From assembly GCF_002211305.1 (NCBI RefSeq), contig NZ_LOKW01000001.1:868001-932000 (forward strand): 64,000 nt of DNA, in the 5' to 3' direction. Both the position numbers and the translations under genes were made by a program. Under the pieces are notes generated by a model. That model was not told where the DNA came from and ran no database searches. It saw nothing but the letters and a program-made list of their open reading frames with translations. The stretch comes from Rhizobium sp. R634. Lineage in GTDB: Bacteria; Pseudomonadota; Alphaproteobacteria; Rhizobiales; Rhizobiaceae. Shown here piece by piece: positions 1-5,022 of the stretch (positions within the stretch are counted from its first letter, which is position 1; every line of letters begins with the position of its first letter).

Positions 1-470
1 TCAGCATCACCGGGTAGCCGATCGCTTCCGCTGCGGAAAGCGCTTCCTCGGCGCTCGACAACAGGCCCGTACCGGGCAGAAGCGGTACGCCGTTCGCCTT
101 GGCGAGTTCGCGGGCCGTATGTTTCAAGCCGAAGGCCGATAGATGCTCCGGCCGAGGGCCGATGAAGGCGATGCCTTCGGCGGCAAGCCGCTCGGCAAAA
201 CCGATATTTTCGGAGAGAAAACCATAGCCGGGATGGACGGCTTCCGCTCCCGTCGACCTGCACGCGGCGATGACGGCATCGACATTCAGGTAACTTTCGC
301 CGGCCGGCGGCGGGCCGAGACGGACGGCTTCGTCGGCCATCATCACCGCTTTGGCGAAACGGTCGGCATCGGAATAGACGGCGACCGAGGCAATGCCCAT
401 GCGCTGCAGCGTCTTGATGACCCGCACGGCGATTTCGCCGCGGTTCGCGATCAGGATTTTCTTGAACATG
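1..470 (-). CDS. Guanidine/urea carboxylase, N-terminal part (cut by window edge)
   Basis: Partial gene: about 156 N-terminal codons are present and the rest lies beyond the left edge. The start ATG is at 470. The visible protein is the beginning of a biotin carboxylase domain, with ILIANRGEIAVRVIKT at residues 5-20 and HPGYGFLSEN further on, as in biotin-dependent carboxylases. Its place directly after two DUF1989 proteins and a riboswitch-controlled ABC importer matches the cluster once annotated as urea carboxylase. In riboswitch-associated examples that enzyme carboxylates guanidine with ATP and bicarbonate. From this fragment alone, acetyl-CoA or propionyl-CoA carboxylase cannot be excluded, but the neighbours make guanidine (or urea) the best substrate. 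Confidence 0.85.
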
Positions 471-471
471 A

Positions 472-1122
472 TCAGGCCTCGCCATCCCAGATCAGCACGC
501 GGATCGGTGTCGGATCGAAGCCGTTGCACGGGTTGTTGACCTGCGGGCAATTGGAGATGACGCAGAGCACATCCATCTCGGCGACGAGTTCGACATAGTC
601 GCCGGGCGCGGAAATACCGTCGACGATCGTCATCTCGCCGGTCGGCTGGATCGGCACGTTCATGAAGAAGTTGATGTTCGGCACGATATCGCGCTTACCC
701 ATGCCGTGTTTCGAAACTTCGAGCAGGAAGTTGTCGCGGCAGGCATGCAGATACTTCGTGCCGTGGCCGAAGCGCACCGTATTGCTCTCGCAGGAGCAGG
801 CGCCGGCCGAGGTGTCGTGGCGGCCGCAGCTGTCGGCCGTCATGGTCAGCATGACGTTGCCTTCGCTCGACATGATCTTCGTGCCGATGCCGACATAGGC
901 GGCACCCTGCATGCGCATCGTGTCCTGGTTGGAATAGCGCTCGGAGAAATCGTCGGCGCGATAGAAGAGCGTGTCGATCGCCTGTTGGCCGTAGCTATCC
1001 TCGATACGGATGATCTGGCCCTTGCGCACGATGCCGGACCATGGCGCTTCGGCTGCGATGAAGTGATCCTGCGCGGCATTTTCCACGGCGCGGGCAGGGG
1101 AGGTCTGAATGAAATCGGACAT
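472..1122 (-). CDS. DUF1989 urea-carboxylase-associated protein, short type (likely carboxyguanidine deiminase subunit)
   Basis: A 216-residue DUF1989 protein of the urea carboxylase-associated family. It has a Cys/His-rich centre (ADSCGRHDTSAGACSCES near residues 95-115), then a conserved HACRDNFLLE segment and FFMNVPIQPTG. In established work the paired DUF1989 proteins CgdA and CgdB form the deiminase that converts carboxyguanidine to allophanate plus ammonia. Which of the two this one is cannot be told by reading. The stop is one base from the carboxylase start and the gene begins 10 bases after its larger paralogue, so all three are probably translationally coupled. The Cys and His residues suggest a metal site, but this is inference. 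Confidence 0.88.
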   Translation of the reverse strand: MSDFIQTSPARAVENAAQDHFIAAEAPWSGIVRKGQIIRIEDSYGQQAIDTLFYRADDFSERYSNQDTMRMQGAAYVGIGTKIMSSEGNVMLTMTADSCGRHDTSAGACSCESNTVRFGHGTKYLHACRDNFLLEVSKHGMGKRDIVPNINFFMNVPIQPTGEMTIVDGISAPGDYVELVAEMDVLCVISNCPQVNNPCNGFDPTPIRVLIWDGEA

Positions 1123-1132
1123 CGTCTTCTCC

Positions 1133-1954
1133 TCAGGCCTGCATCAAGGCGTTGTTTTCGAAACCGCGCACCGCTTCGGCCGTTGCCGTGCGGCAAAGAT
1201 CGTCCGCTGCCGGGACTGCAGCCTTGTAGCGCGTGATGACAACAGGTTTCGGCTGGTAGTTCGGATCCGGATCGAGGGGATGCGGGCAATTGGAAAAGCC
1301 GACCAGCATGTCCATCTCGGCACGCAGTTCGACATAATCGCCGCTGTTGGAACGCTTGCCCTGCCAGCCGAAGCCGCCGGCCGCGGCAAGGCGCACGGGC
1401 GCGAAGAGATTGAGGATGCCGGGAATATCGCGACGGGTAAGACCGAGCTTGCCGGCGACGAGGATCAGGTTGTCGCGGGTATTGCGCGTCTTTTCGCCCG
1501 GATATTTCGCCGCGTTCGAGGCAGCGGTCGAGCCGCCCATCAGACAGTCATGAGCGCCGGAACTGTCCTCGATCATCGAGAACATGACGCGGCCCATGTC
1601 GGAGAAGATCACGCGCCCCTTGCCGAGCGCCGTCGTCCACTGGACCTTGGCGGTATCGACGAGATTGATCCGTTCGCTGGTATCAGCGGCGCTCCAGGCG
1701 ACGAGCGCCACGGTGGAACTGCCCTCCGCCTGATCAACGCGGATCGCTTCGCCGCGCGAGACTTTCGTCGACCAGTACCAGCCACCGGGGACGGTTTCCT
1801 GGTGGATGACGGCGGCGGTGTCGATCGCCGGCGCCGGCAAGGGGCTGGGGCCGGGCAGCGCCTTGGGGGCGAATTCCAGCCCCTTCTTCTGATGCTCCTC
1901 ATATCGTGCGCGGTTGGCGGCGATTTCTTCGGGTGAGCGTCCCACATGCATCAT
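1133..1954 (-). CDS. DUF1989 urea-carboxylase-associated protein, long type (likely carboxyguanidine deiminase subunit)
   Basis: A 273-residue DUF1989 paralogue of the downstream protein. Shared landmarks are a ...MIEDSSGAHDCLMGG... segment, TRDNLILVAGKLGLTRRDIPGILNLFAPV, and a C-terminal VGFSNCPHPLDP that matches VISNCPQVNNP in the short protein. Its N-terminus carries an extra roughly 40 residues rich in Pro and Ala. Start ATG 1954 overlaps the stop of the ATPase gene by four bases (ATGA), which argues for one operon. Family knowledge links the pair to hydrolysis of carboxyguanidine between guanidine carboxylase and allophanate hydrolase. No export signal is seen, so a cytoplasmic enzyme is expected. 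Confidence 0.88.
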   Translation of the reverse strand: MMHVGRSPEEIAANRARYEEHQKKGLEFAPKALPGPSPLPAPAIDTAAVIHQETVPGGWYWSTKVSRGEAIRVDQAEGSSTVALVAWSAADTSERINLVDTAKVQWTTALGKGRVIFSDMGRVMFSMIEDSSGAHDCLMGGSTAASNAAKYPGEKTRNTRDNLILVAGKLGLTRRDIPGILNLFAPVRLAAAGGFGWQGKRSNSGDYVELRAEMDMLVGFSNCPHPLDPDPNYQPKPVVITRYKAAVPAADDLCRTATAEAVRGFENNALMQA

Positions 1955-2775
1955 TGCAACTCTCCTGACGGTGCCAGGTCGTCCCGGCTGTGCCCCAGGG
2001 AAGCGACCGGGCCGTCCCGGTCGGGGCTGAAGATCGACGGCTGGCCGGCAAGGCGCGGCGGCCAGATGGAAATATCCTTGGTGATGGTGGCGCCGTAGCG
2101 CTCCCTTTCCTCCGGCCGGTTGCGGCGGCGCTCGAAAGCCACGACGCGGTTCGCAAGCGTGAAGGCTTCGCGCATGTCATGCGTGACCATGACGACAGTC
2201 ATCTGCGTCTCGTGCCAAAGCCGCTTCATCAGCGTGTGGATCTCGGCCCGAATGCCCGGATCGAGCGCGCCGAAGGGTTCGTCGAGCAGCAGCACTTTCG
2301 GCTTCATGATCAGAGCCTGGGCGAGCGCAAGGCGCTGCTGCATGCCGCCCGAAAGCTGGGCCGGGTATTTGCCTTCAGAACCGGCAAGACCCACCTCGGC
2401 GACCAGTCGGCGCGCTTCATCGAGAGCGTTGCGGCGGGCCGCGCCGAAGAGCCTGGCCCTATAGCGGGCGGCGGAAAACTCCCGGCCGAGCAGCACATTC
2501 CCGAGCACGGTCAGATGCGGAAAGACGGAGTAGCGCTGGAAGACGACACCGCGATCCGGCCCCGGCTCCGGTGGCAGAGGCTCGCCGTCGAGCAGGATCT
2601 TGCCCTTTGTCGGCTGTTCCTGGCCGAGCAGCATGCGCAGAAACGTCGTCTTGCCACAGCCGGAGGGGCCGACGAGGGCGACGAATGCGCGCGAAGCGAC
2701 GGTGAGCGACACGTCTTCCAATACGATCTGGTCGCCATATTCCTTCCAGACCCGTTCGATCCTCAGTTCGCTCAT
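1951..2775 (-). CDS. ABC importer ATPase (NitT/TauT type), guanidine/urea operon
   Basis: A 274-residue ATPase. Walker A is GPSGCGKTT, the signature is LSGGMQQRLALAQAL, Walker B is VLLLDEPFGALD and the H-loop is MVTHDMREAF, all typical of the NrtD/SsuB/TauB class. A longer open frame extends upstream, but the start at 2775 is preferred because it begins with the usual family N-terminus and its ATG overlaps the permease stop in an ATGA. After the core there is an unusual tail of about 50 residues (IWPPRLAGQP..., Asp/Ser-rich) of unknown role. It should energise the permease and binding protein upstream, importing guanidine or a related compound. Confidence 0.93.
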   Translation of the reverse strand: MSELRIERVWKEYGDQIVLEDVSLTVASRAFVALVGPSGCGKTTFLRMLLGQEQPTKGKILLDGEPLPPEPGPDRGVVFQRYSVFPHLTVLGNVLLGREFSAARYRARLFGAARRNALDEARRLVAEVGLAGSEGKYPAQLSGGMQQRLALAQALIMKPKVLLLDEPFGALDPGIRAEIHTLMKRLWHETQMTVVMVTHDMREAFTLANRVVAFERRRNRPEERERYGATITKDISIWPPRLAGQPSIFSPDRDGPVASLGHSRDDLAPSGELQ

Positions 2776-3590
2776 GCCTGCTTCTCCAGCTCCGACCAGG
2801 GGAAGACGGCGATCCGCAAGCGGTCGAGCAGGGCGTTCATGACCACGGCAAGCAGCGTGATCCAGATGACATAGGGAAAGATGATATCCATCGAAAGATA
2901 GCGGCGAACGAGGAAGATACGGTAGCCGAGGCCGGAATCGGACGAGATCGCTTCGGCGGCGATCAGGAACAGCCAGGCGGGGCCGAGCTGCAGCCGGAGG
3001 CATGTGATCAGCCGCGGCAGGATCTGCGGCAGCACGACACGCAGGCCGATCTGCCAGGAGGAGCCGCCGAGCGTTTCAGCCTTGACGATCTGTTCGCGGG
3101 GCAGCTCCAGCGCCTTCAATGCCAGGTCCCGGATCATCGTCGGCGCAACGCCGATAACGATGAGGGCGATCTTCGAGGTTTCGCCGAGCCCCATCACAAT
3201 GAAGAGGATCGGCAAAAGCGCGAGCGGCGGCACCATGGAGATAACGGCGATGAAAGGGGCGAGCAGCGCCCGGAGATAAGGCAACATGCCGATCAGCATG
3301 CCGATGAGAAGCGCGATCGCCGTCGAGATGCCGAGGCCGGAGAGCAGCCGGATCAGGCTTGCTCCGGTATCCGACCAGAGCAGATATTCACCCGTGCGCT
3401 GGTCGGCAACGAAAGCAAGACGGTTGATCGCATCGGCGAAGCCCGCCAGGCTCGGCAGAAGCTTATCATTGGCGTTTTCCGCCAGTCGCGCTGCCGAGCC
3501 GAAGGCATAGGCAAGGGCGAGCAGCACGAAGGGCAGCAGCGTCAAGGCAAGCTGCGCGCCCCGGCTCGGCCTCGTGTTGATCCAACGCAT
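2772..3590 (-). CDS. ABC importer permease (NitT/TauT type), guanidine/urea operon
   Basis: A 272-residue hydrophobic inner-membrane protein with about six membrane segments and the cytoplasmic coupling loop AETLGGSSWQIGLRVVLPQI around residues 170-190, the EAA-type motif of BPD permeases. A short hydrophobic N-terminus (LALTLLPFVLLALAYAFGSA) is followed by a longer periplasmic stretch. It sits between the binding-protein gene and the ATPase and overlaps the ATPase start by four bases. Only one permease gene is present, so a homodimer is expected, as in taurine and nitrate importers. Confidence 0.92.
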   Translation of the reverse strand: MRWINTRPSRGAQLALTLLPFVLLALAYAFGSAARLAENANDKLLPSLAGFADAINRLAFVADQRTGEYLLWSDTGASLIRLLSGLGISTAIALLIGMLIGMLPYLRALLAPFIAVISMVPPLALLPILFIVMGLGETSKIALIVIGVAPTMIRDLALKALELPREQIVKAETLGGSSWQIGLRVVLPQILPRLITCLRLQLGPAWLFLIAAEAISSDSGLGYRIFLVRRYLSMDIIFPYVIWITLLAVVMNALLDRLRIAVFPWSELEKQA

Positions 3591-3648: not shown

Positions 3649-4722
3649 TCAGAGCGAGGCGTCGGCCGCTGCCTTCATGTAGGTCTCGGTGAAGCGGAGC
3701 TTCACATTGGCGGCATCGCCCAGCACCTTGCCGTCAGGCATTTCGATACCGATCACGTCGGCAGATGGCGCGCCATTGCCGAGCAGGCCCTTCTCGAAGA
3801 GGAAGCCGCGGACGAGATCCATGGTCTTCGGCAGGCTGGGCGAGGCGGTGAAGGCAACGGCGTCGGCCGGTTTGTCGAAGAGCTTGGTCGCGGCGAGCTG
3901 CGCCTCGAAGCCGGCGAGATCAGTGCCGGATGCTGCGCCCATGGCTTCGCGGGCGGCTTTGCCCTCGGCGGTATCGGCCCGCAGCAGCGCTGCCGTCTCG
4001 TACCAGATGCCGGCAAGCGCCTTGCCGAAATTCGGATTGTCCTTCAGTACGTCGGTATTGGCGACCATTAGGTCGATGATCTCGCCCGGGACCTGCGAGC
4101 TGTCGAAAACTTTCTTGGCGCTAGGATCCTCCAGAATGGTGGAGACGAGTGGATTCCAGGTGACGACGGCGCTGACATCAGGCGTCTTGTAGGCGGCGAC
4201 CATGTCGGCATCTGATGTATTGACCACCTTCACGTCGCGCTCGCTGAGCTTGATGCTTTCAAGCGCACGGGCAAGCAGATAGTGCGAGACGGAAAACTCG
4301 ACGAGATTGACGTTCTGACCCTTGATGTCGCCAAGGCTCGGCTTGTCCTTCAGGATCACGGCGTCGTTGCCGTTCGAAAAATCGCCGACGATGACGGCCG
4401 TCGTGTCGACTCCGCCGGCGGCCGGGATCGAGAGACCGTCCATATTGGTGAGCGTCACGGCATCGAAGGCGCCCGCCGTATACTGGTTCATCGACTCGAC
4501 GTAGTCGTTGAACTGGGTGACTTCGATGTTGATGCCGTATTTATCGGCCCACTTCTTGACGATGCCGTGGTCGCTCGCATAGCCCCAGGGCATCCAACCG
4601 ACATAGATCGACCAGGCGACCTTGAAGCTGGTTTTCGGCGCCGCCCCGGCGGCAGAGCCGAACCCGAAAGCCAACGATACCGAAAGGGCCGCTACGGAAA
4701 GAATCTTCGAAAAAGTCTGCAT
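3649..4722 (-). CDS. ABC importer periplasmic binding protein, urea-carboxylase-region family
   Basis: A 357-residue secreted protein. The Sec signal peptide (MQTFSKILSVAALSVSLAFG...AAGAAP) ends near residue 28. The mature part starts KTSFKVAWSIYVGWMPWGYA, typical of NitT/TauT binding proteins, and contains the hinge-like segment VNLVEFSVSHYLLARAL near residue 145. It fits the family of binding proteins found beside urea/guanidine carboxylase genes (TIGR03427 type). It is the first gene after the guanidine-I riboswitch, which makes guanidine the best-supported ligand. Binding itself is inferred from context. Confidence 0.92.
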   Translation of the reverse strand: MQTFSKILSVAALSVSLAFGFGSAAGAAPKTSFKVAWSIYVGWMPWGYASDHGIVKKWADKYGINIEVTQFNDYVESMNQYTAGAFDAVTLTNMDGLSIPAAGGVDTTAVIVGDFSNGNDAVILKDKPSLGDIKGQNVNLVEFSVSHYLLARALESIKLSERDVKVVNTSDADMVAAYKTPDVSAVVTWNPLVSTILEDPSAKKVFDSSQVPGEIIDLMVANTDVLKDNPNFGKALAGIWYETAALLRADTAEGKAAREAMGAASGTDLAGFEAQLAATKLFDKPADAVAFTASPSLPKTMDLVRGFLFEKGLLGNGAPSADVIGIEMPDGKVLGDAANVKLRFTETYMKAAADASL

Positions 4723-4745
4723 AGAAATTCCCCTTTTGCTTTTTC

Positions 4746-4785
4746 AAAAAGGGATCGGCAAAGACCATCGCGCCGCCAATCCCTT
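4746..4785 (-). terminator. Intrinsic terminator in the riboswitch expression platform
   Basis: On the minus strand, AAGGGATTGGC (4785-4775) pairs with GCCGATCCCTT (4759-4749) in an 11-bp stem with one G-U pair and a 15-base loop. The T-run continues with TTT before GAAAAAG. It lies between the ykkC aptamer and the binding-protein start, where an aptamer-controlled terminator belongs. Guanidine binding would be expected to favour read-through. Confidence 0.8.
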
Positions 4786-4789
4786 GGCT

Positions 4790-4909
4790 TACGAGGTCTC
4801 CCGGGCTTTTATCCCGCCGTGCATCCGGTGGGATTTCTCTCCCAGCCGGTGGTGGCTCTCGGACCAGCACGCTTCCAAAGAGAGCGCCGGAACCCTAGCC
4901 ACCAACTCG
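4790..4909 (-). ncRNA. Guanidine-I riboswitch (ykkC aptamer)
   Basis: The minus strand carries the hallmark ykkC sequence blocks in order and spacing: CTAGGGTTCCG (4898-4888), TGGTCCGAGAG (4866-4856), and GGATAAAAGCCCGGGAGA ending at 4797. The closing stem P1 is GGTGGCT (4903-4897) with AGCCACC (4857-4851). A terminator hairpin follows at 4785-4746 and then the binding-protein start at 4722. The ykkC class senses free guanidinium and turns on guanidine export or degradation genes, so here it should activate the import and carboxylation operon. Confidence 0.96.
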
Positions 4910-4919
4910 CAAATATCAA

Positions 4920-4936
4920 AGCAAACGGTGTGCCAG
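4920..4936 (-). promoter_or_regulatory. Sigma-54 (RpoN) promoter of the guanidine operon
   Basis: On the minus strand, CTGGCACACCGTTTGCT matches the -24/-12 consensus YTGGCACN5TTGCW. The invariant GG (4934-4933) and GC (4922-4921) are exactly ten bases apart. A start about 12 bases further on (near 4909) would put P1 of the riboswitch right at the RNA 5' end. This predicts nitrogen control (NtrC) on top of guanidine sensing. Confidence 0.75.
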
Positions 4937-5005
4937 ATCGTAACTTGTTGATTTTACATGAGACGGTGATCGCCACTTGCTTTCGAATTCGCCGACAAAT
5001 GCATT

Positions 5006-5022
5006 TGCGCGAAAATTGTGCA
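5006..5022 (-). promoter_or_regulatory. NtrC-like enhancer palindrome
   Basis: TGCGCGAAAATTGTGCA fits the 17-bp NtrC site layout (TGCAC-like half, four-to-seven-base centre, GTGCA half): the outer TGC and GCA and the inner C/G are conserved, the middle is not. Its distance from the predicted start at about 4909 is roughly 100 bp, typical for a sigma-54 enhancer site. It is a single site with an imperfect match, hence moderate confidence. Confidence 0.45.

Follow-up and report, generated by a model that had tools for sequence, protein, structure and literature searches.

A conserved sigma-54 promoter ahead of a guanidine-I riboswitch suggests nitrogen-gated guanidine assimilation in Rhizobium and related bacteria

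Introduction

Why should a guanidine riboswitch stand directly behind a promoter of the kind that rhizobia place ahead of nitrogen genes? The question is raised by an operon at one end of the window, the whole 64,000-nucleotide stretch of Rhizobium sp. R634 DNA analysed here, and it touches on one that is still open in the guanidine riboswitch field, namely whether guanidine is for bacteria mainly a toxin or a nutrient. In the assimilation pathway, as a recent review outlines it, a carboxylase, a deiminase and an allophanate hydrolase act in turn (PMC12186494). In rhizobia, glnK and other nitrogen genes have been reported to have RpoN promoters (PMC3616915). Here, we describe the regulatory elements of the operon, follow them through related genomes and weigh the ways in which they could work together.

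Results

The features of the operon are collected in Table 1. The genes downstream of the guanidine-I aptamer are those of guanidine metabolism: a TIGR03427 substrate-binding protein, the two UAAP subunits, the carboxylase and, beyond the window in the adjoining genome stretch (L238), an allophanate hydrolase that follows the carboxylase (TIGR02713, 763.5 bits). The TIGR03427 protein is annotated as a 'urea' protein but its substrate is probably guanidine, and its closest named counterparts are those of R. lentis (97%) and R. sophoriradicis (96%). To go by the title of a 2020 paper from Schneider et al., proteins annotated for urea metabolism are reportedly carboxyguanidine deiminases. A creatininase-family protein that scores below the named cut-offs is encoded on the same strand, 3' of the allophanate hydrolase (L238 4136-4957), and may be a source of guanidino compounds. 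The aptamer itself matches RF00442 over the full length of the model (positions 1-107 of 107) with a score above the Rfam gathering value of 63; judged by its sequence it is a clear member of the guanidine-I family, as an earlier note on this DNA had recognized in calling it a ykkC aptamer.

Table 1. Features of the guanidine operon and its control region, in window coordinates
Feature	Position	Strand	Evidence or remark
NtrC-type dyad TGCACAATTTTCGCGCA (TGC-N11-GCA)	5006..5022	.	about 100-113 bp upstream of predicted start
Sigma-54 -24/-12 promoter TGGCACACCGTTTGCT (predicted)	4920..4935	-	box score, conservation
Predicted transcription start	4908..4909	-	from box position
Guanidine-I (ykkC) aptamer	4796..4909	-	RF00442, 79.7 bits, E 1.5e-12
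Expression platform, 13-position stem then TTTTT, terminator-like	4746..4783	-	
Alternative hairpin over Shine-Dalgarno AAAAGGGG of first gene	4729..4754	-	
Periplasmic substrate-binding protein	3649..4722	-	TIGR03427, 553.6 bits, over cut-off
ABC transporter permease	2772..3590	-	below cut-offs of named equivalogs
ABC transporter ATPase	1951..2778	-	below cut-offs of named equivalogs shown
Guanidine-II (mini-ykkC) aptamer in 3' end of ATPase frame	1974..2023	-	RF01068, 40.6 bits
UAAP1, carboxyguanidine deiminase subunit	1133..1954	-	TIGR03425, 296.1 bits, over cut-off
UAAP2, carboxyguanidine deiminase subunit	472..1122	-	TIGR03424, 333.1 bits, over cut-off
Guanidine ('urea') carboxylase, 5' part	1..471	-	TIGR02712, 1564.7 bits on L238; continues past window; end of this part inferred from matched model positions

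Sigma-54 recognizes the consensus TGGCACG-N4-TTGCW. The candidate box TGGCACACCGTTTGCT matches 11 of 12 scored positions, has the GG-N10-GC core exactly and departs from this consensus by a single G to A change. The pattern TGGCAC-N5-TTGCW occurs without mismatch at four sites in the 6.73-Mb genome, this box among them, and a reversed-pattern control gives one. When up to one mismatch is allowed the count rises to 125, below the 197 of the reversed-pattern control, and a single near-match is therefore of little weight: the case rests on conservation. The -12 GC ends at 4921, 12 positions ahead of where the aptamer begins. This spacing puts the predicted start at about 4909, which is position 1 of the RF00442 model. 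The earlier note had described a near-perfect -24/-12 box with a predicted start just before stem P1, and both descriptions agree with what we find.

We assessed conservation in three sets of loci. For the order set 397 genomes were searched with RF00442, of which 101 gave a match and 77 a match over the cut-off; the set comprises 91 of the 92 over-cut-off matches (that of genome G134 was left out), and 30 matches below the cut-off were set aside. Taking as a box any score of at least 10 of 12 within 120 nt upstream of the aptamer, 79 of these 91 loci have one. In 200 dinucleotide shuffles such loci numbered 1.34 on average and never more than 5, and the reverse strand gave none; in 78 of the 79 the -12 C lies 6-16 positions before the aptamer. 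A phylum-wide search of 398 genomes found 43 with a match, from which 24 loci of other classes, presumably beta- and gamma-proteobacteria, were scored and further matches left out; a box precedes the aptamer by 41-79 positions in 23 of the 24 (shuffle mean 0.43). The third set consists of 80 named loci with flanks of up to 7 kb, shorter near contig ends, and shares some genomes with the order set. Once L166, which is without the aptamer motif, is left out, 63 of the remaining 79 have a box within 20 positions, the shuffle mean of 1.46 counting any box in the stretch. One locus outside all of these counts (L207, same class, other order) had no box evident on inspection. Across relatives in the order and other-class sets, then, the box is conserved beyond chance. 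In an alignment of six sequences, five from members of the genus and one from another family, no column of TGGCACA or TTGC varies, in a stretch whose mean column identity is 58%. Because the motif is constant but differently spaced from the aptamer in the order and the other-class loci, the box is best read as a promoter, and a conserved RNA element was rejected on the same ground. Taken together, these counts suggest that the pairing of a predicted sigma-54 promoter with a guanidine riboswitch is widespread in related bacteria.

Which genes carry the box differs within the order set. It is present at 72 of the 76 transporter-led loci, at 5 of the 10 in which UAAP1 comes first and at 1 of the remaining 5, and it is missing at the substrate-binding-protein-led loci L024, L028, L059 and L071. 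Two of these remaining five, L041 and L044, are without a scoring box and look by eye like guanidinase loci, with genes for a ureohydrolase of guanidinase-like type and for a His-rich HypB-like protein. In genome G179 the importer behind the boxed guanidine-I aptamers (L033, L074) is a different one, its genes resembling by eye those of a peptide-type ABC transporter. The Rhizobium sp. R634 genome has a second guanidine-II element (L239 2989-3040, C26:222488; 32.3 bits) with an SMR/gdx-like exporter gene from 3062. None of the 16 gdx genes behind guanidine-II, this genome's (L003) included, has a box within 250 nt, the best score being 8; this comparison covers guanidine-II leaders only, and four of its 31 loci were without a query-protein match. 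The contrast with the transporter-led loci indicates that this nitrogen-type promoter goes with uptake and breakdown and, as far as the gdx genes behind guanidine-II show, not with export.

NtrC sites typically lie about 100-150 bp upstream of a promoter. The palindrome TGCACAATTTTCGCGCA, which the earlier note had called NtrC-like, is one mismatch away from TGCAC-N7-GTGCA, and its TGC-N11-GCA core emerges from relatives without being asked for: an unbiased scan for trimer dyads at -320..-38 in 40 genera returned TGC-N11-GCA as the top dyad, in 19 of 40 with 4.3 expected from 10 shuffles. Between -200 and -38 it occurs in 24 of the 63 named box-bearing loci (6.7 expected) and in 27 of the 91 order loci (7.1 expected), with matches in relatives clustered at -120..-101, whereas the control region -700..-538 has 6 against 4.6 expected. 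Other spacings are in smaller excess: among the named loci N8 with 14 and N16 with 12, among the order loci N13 with 14. In the six-sequence alignment TGC..GCA is kept at the same place in four, the window included. A TGC-N11-GCA sequence with an A/T-rich centre is described as the putative NtrC motif of an S. meliloti promoter, where it was bound and footprinted (PMC10746234). Comparative evidence thus supports a sigma-54 promoter with a putative NtrC-type site. In box-less Rhodoblastus and Rhodopseudomonas (L132, L145), whose NtrC keeps GAFTGA, an NtrC-like TGCACA..TGTG dyad can be seen by eye about 60 nt before the aptamer.

NtrC contacts sigma-54 through its GAFTGA loop, and according to one report Rhodobacterales have an NtrC without this loop, that of R. 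capsulatus being said to work with sigma-70 (PMC10274813). The Rhizobium sp. R634 genome encodes rpoN and ntrC, both over the cut-off, and its NtrC (L094; 697.9 bits to TIGR01818) reads EKGAFTGAQTR. The six named loci from Rhodobacterales, their order checked, have the riboswitch and no box (0 of 6), whereas in the same set 62 of the 70 other alphaproteobacterial loci have it. The Fisher test (p of 1.4e-5) counts the members of a single clade as independent loci and therefore overstates their independence, and the absence may be a single event. NtrC is without GAFTGA in all six of those Rhodobacterales genomes, and it keeps GAFTGA, or GSFTGA in Azorhizobium, in 6 of 6 sampled box-bearing genomes. 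However, NtrC is over the cut-off and retains GAFTGA or GSFTGA in all eight genomes of the other box-less alphaproteobacterial loci (L119, L132, L137, L144, L145, L165, L167 and L177). The box can therefore vanish for other reasons, loss of the loop is ruled out as the cause of every missing box, and we hold the NtrC reading with less confidence. By eye, L165 and L167 have what look like decayed boxes. Caulobacter NtrC mutants without GAFTGA have been reported to promote sigma-54-dependent expression (PMC12421884). With the NtrC of this genome as query, an AAA+ activator turns up in the flank of L170 alone among the 80 named loci, and L102 has a 94-residue receiver-like piece at the flank edge. 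A dedicated activator adjoining the operon was ruled out on this count, which points to a global one.

The candidate off-structure between the aptamer and the first gene is the hairpin GGGATTGGCGGCG-CGATGGT-CTTTGCCGATCCC followed by TTTTT (4783..4746). It is absent from the output of a generic terminator scan, which instead lists the Shine-Dalgarno-covering hairpin at 4754..4729, one found where shuffles give 1.0; for this reason the terminator role is less certain than the rest. In the window and in close relatives the hairpin CCAAGGGATTGGC..GCCGATCCCTTTTT nevertheless looks like a terminator. A U-run hairpin scores in 30 of 170 loci, and mononucleotide shuffling of the 91 order loci yields a single one, so the off-mechanism varies. 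The terminator that the earlier note had assigned to this aptamer thus survives as a U-run hairpin in its place, with a role that is less secure. For some relatives, Rhodopseudomonas among them (ATTCCTC with GAGGAAT), the 3' arm of the hairpin is also the complement of the Shine-Dalgarno sequence, and by eye the two partners have changed in step. This pairing of 3' arm and Shine-Dalgarno is also the one in the minimum free-energy fold computed for the window RNA. Transcriptional and translational control may both be in use. Four genomes of other classes have two guanidine-I aptamers on the same strand some 1.4-4.5 kb apart (G443:C31, G726:C1, G712:C13 and G563:C1).

The earlier note did not include the second riboswitch of the operon, nor the breadth of the arrangement or the contrast with the 16 gdx loci. 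The guanidine-II element (gathering score 32 in Rfam) consists of two hairpins with GGACG[AG]CC loops, forms the last ATPase codons in frame and is separated by 19 nt from the start codon of UAAP1. A pair of such hairpins is present in 57 of the 59 named loci with UAAP1 and in none of the 21 whose flanking DNA gave no UAAP1. The distance from aptamer to UAAP1 match is 22-73 nt in 54 of the 57, that is, the element lies directly ahead in 54 of the 59 UAAP1-containing loci. Two of the others, the gamma-proteobacterial L173 and L176, have it 1.4-1.6 kb further on, by eye before the carboxylase start as in enterobacteria, and in L141 the best UAAP1 match is elsewhere, not next to guanidine-II. The ATPase stop codon falls after the aptamer in 38 of 56 loci and within it in 7; among loci directly before UAAP1 with an ATPase match it falls after the aptamer in 37 of 53. 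The aptamer is therefore mostly coding sequence. Its stem pairs change on both sides with pairing kept (n=57): P1 pair -4 is A-T in 28, G-C in 20, C-G in 2, G-T in 3 and unpaired in 4 of the 57, P1 pair -3 is C-G in 45, T-A in 6, G-C in 3 and unpaired in 3, and 16 leave P2 -4, an outer pair, unpaired.

Discussion

Altogether, we consider it likely that the operon is a layered, nitrogen-gated system for guanidine assimilation in which NtrC and sigma-54, a guanidine-I and a guanidine-II riboswitch act together. We envision that, when nitrogen is short, phosphorylated NtrC would bind the dyad about 110 bp upstream and remodel sigma-54 RNA polymerase at the -24/-12 box, a step suggested by the comparative data. 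The transcript would then start with base 1 of the guanidine-I aptamer, as the box and its distance predict, and would be little more than riboswitch plus operon. Guanidine bound to the nascent aptamer, as known for the family, would block the off-structure, presumably the U-run hairpin in the window and its close relatives and a Shine-Dalgarno-covering hairpin in some others, and so allow expression of the importer. The guanidine-II riboswitch inside the ATPase coding sequence, again by its known family function, would set translation of the carboxyguanidine deiminase. The output would be import together with carboxylase, deiminase and allophanate hydrolase, and ammonium would be formed only if a shortage of nitrogen coincides with the presence of guanidine: an AND logic in which nitrogen shortage would license transcription and guanidine would permit expression. 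Detoxification would not be nitrogen-gated, since the gdx exporter elsewhere in this genome stands behind a guanidine-II element but has no sigma-54 box. The start site, the identity of NtrC as activator, the dependence on nitrogen, the AND logic and the order of the switches are what we infer from the arrangement and conservation of these elements.

Several other explanations deserve consideration. There is next to no chance, in our estimation, that the box is an accidental match and that an ordinary promoter drives the operon: common as near-matches are in this genome, where they stay below their reversed-pattern control, fixed placement in all three sets far beyond the shuffles, together with the four exact genomic sites, makes this very improbable for the group. 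An extra sigma-70 promoter would be compatible with the box, and guanidine alone would then induce the operon, with sigma-54 adding output, so that the logic would be additive rather than AND. L028 and L071 keep the aptamer without a box and have, by eye, a TATACT-like -10 sequence, and such box-less relatives imply that other promoters can serve. We nonetheless find this explanation unlikely, given the near-constant presence of the box at transporter-led loci. A sigma-70-like site was looked for in the window between 4650 and 5150 and an ordinary sigma-70 promoter there was rejected, none being found, which is weak evidence as shuffles give 0.2.

A sigma-54 promoter could be served by another enhancer-binding protein, for example an orphan, and the gate would then sense something besides nitrogen. 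We regard this as a minor but real possibility: the genome encodes other NtrC-like proteins with GAFTGA (L095, L096), the exact dyad is missing in 39 of the 63 named box-bearing loci, and some genomes have lost the box while keeping an intact NtrC. Against it stand the geometry of the top dyad, which is that described for NtrC, the missing box where NtrC is without GAFTGA, the near-complete absence of AAA+ activator genes from the flanks, and the product of the operon, which is ammonium. The dyad could instead be the T-N11-A box of a LysR-type regulator, a geometry that TGC-N11-GCA also fits, and both kinds of site have been described in one rhizobial promoter (PMC10746234). Its location around -110 and its A/T-rich centre, however, are as expected of NtrC. 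In addition, no LysR protein is known to activate sigma-54 promoters, and this assignment therefore seems to us quite improbable. NtrC acting through sigma-54 remains the reading that we favor.

How does this operon compare with known systems? The guanidine-I assimilation operons described so far (PMC12186494), including that of Vreelandella boliviensis (PMC12508155), share the aptamer class and the importer, carboxylase, deiminase and allophanate hydrolase genes. Like the operon described here, those of enterobacteria and Vreelandella contain an internal guanidine-II element in a guanidine-I operon (PMC12186494, PMC12508155). The enterobacterial element precedes the carboxylase (PMC12186494), whereas that of the window precedes the deiminase from inside the ATPase gene, a placement for which the sections of the guanidine literature consulted gave no description. 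Sigma-54/NtrC control of the known operons is not described in the available text of these two papers (PMC12186494, PMC12508155), and neither 'sigma' nor 'NtrC' is matched in the former, a review from 2025 on bacterial guanidine. The proteomes of V. boliviensis were compared between ammonium and guanidine as sole nitrogen source (PMC12508155), a design that leaves nitrogen status unseparated from the ligand. On the promoter side, a 2025 survey predicts sigma-54 regulation for 102 genes of COG3665, which in 59% of cases carry the name 'urea carboxylase', and for the 'nitrate' ABC transporter COGs 0715/0600/1116 in Pseudomonadota; in the available text 'guanidine' has no match and 'riboswitch' is matched only in the reference list (PMC12316311). 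These predictions very probably include the present operon family. COG3665 we take to be the UAAP family.

Rhizobial NtrC/sigma-54 promoters share the TGC-N11-GCA motif, with no riboswitch described behind them in the accessible portions of the two reports (PMC10746234; PMC3616915). Tandem guanine/PRPP riboswitches offer a parallel for the logic, since there too two signals must agree for a transcript to be completed, but both of their inputs are RNA aptamers (PMC7266159), whereas one input in the window would be an enhancer-activated promoter. No paper that joins sigma-54/NtrC with a guanidine riboswitch was found in the open full-text literature, subscription papers lying outside this scope. 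Regulator-controlled promoters are followed by metabolite-sensing leaders in the nitrogen-regulated, riboswitch-dependent control of cyanobacterial glutamine synthetase and in the PhoP/Mg2+ mgtA leader. Neither of these is known to use sigma-54; both respond to other ligands and lie outside the guanidine pathway. The components, the sigma-54 prediction for part of the operon and the dual guanidine-I/II operons are thus already known, and what is added here is the joint design of promoter and riboswitch, how widely it occurs and that the exporters examined are without it.

These comparisons lead us to a broader model, which we put forward tentatively and with rather more doubt than conviction, that guanidine uptake and breakdown in Pseudomonadota belong to the general NtrC nitrogen-starvation regulon. 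They would be triple-gated, by sigma-54/NtrC, guanidine-I and an ATPase-embedded guanidine-II element at which ribosome passage and guanidine together set deiminase translation; exporters would be ungated, and the promoter would have been rewired where NtrC lost its contact with sigma-54.

If the operon is indeed nitrogen-gated, riboswitch-only reporter assays would miss half of the control, and induction measured by replacing ammonium with guanidine as nitrogen source would mix two inputs. More generally, the placement of an import and degradation operon, and not of an exporter, under a nitrogen-starvation promoter would mean that these bacteria handle guanidine as scavenged nitrogen, an emergency food rather than only a poison.
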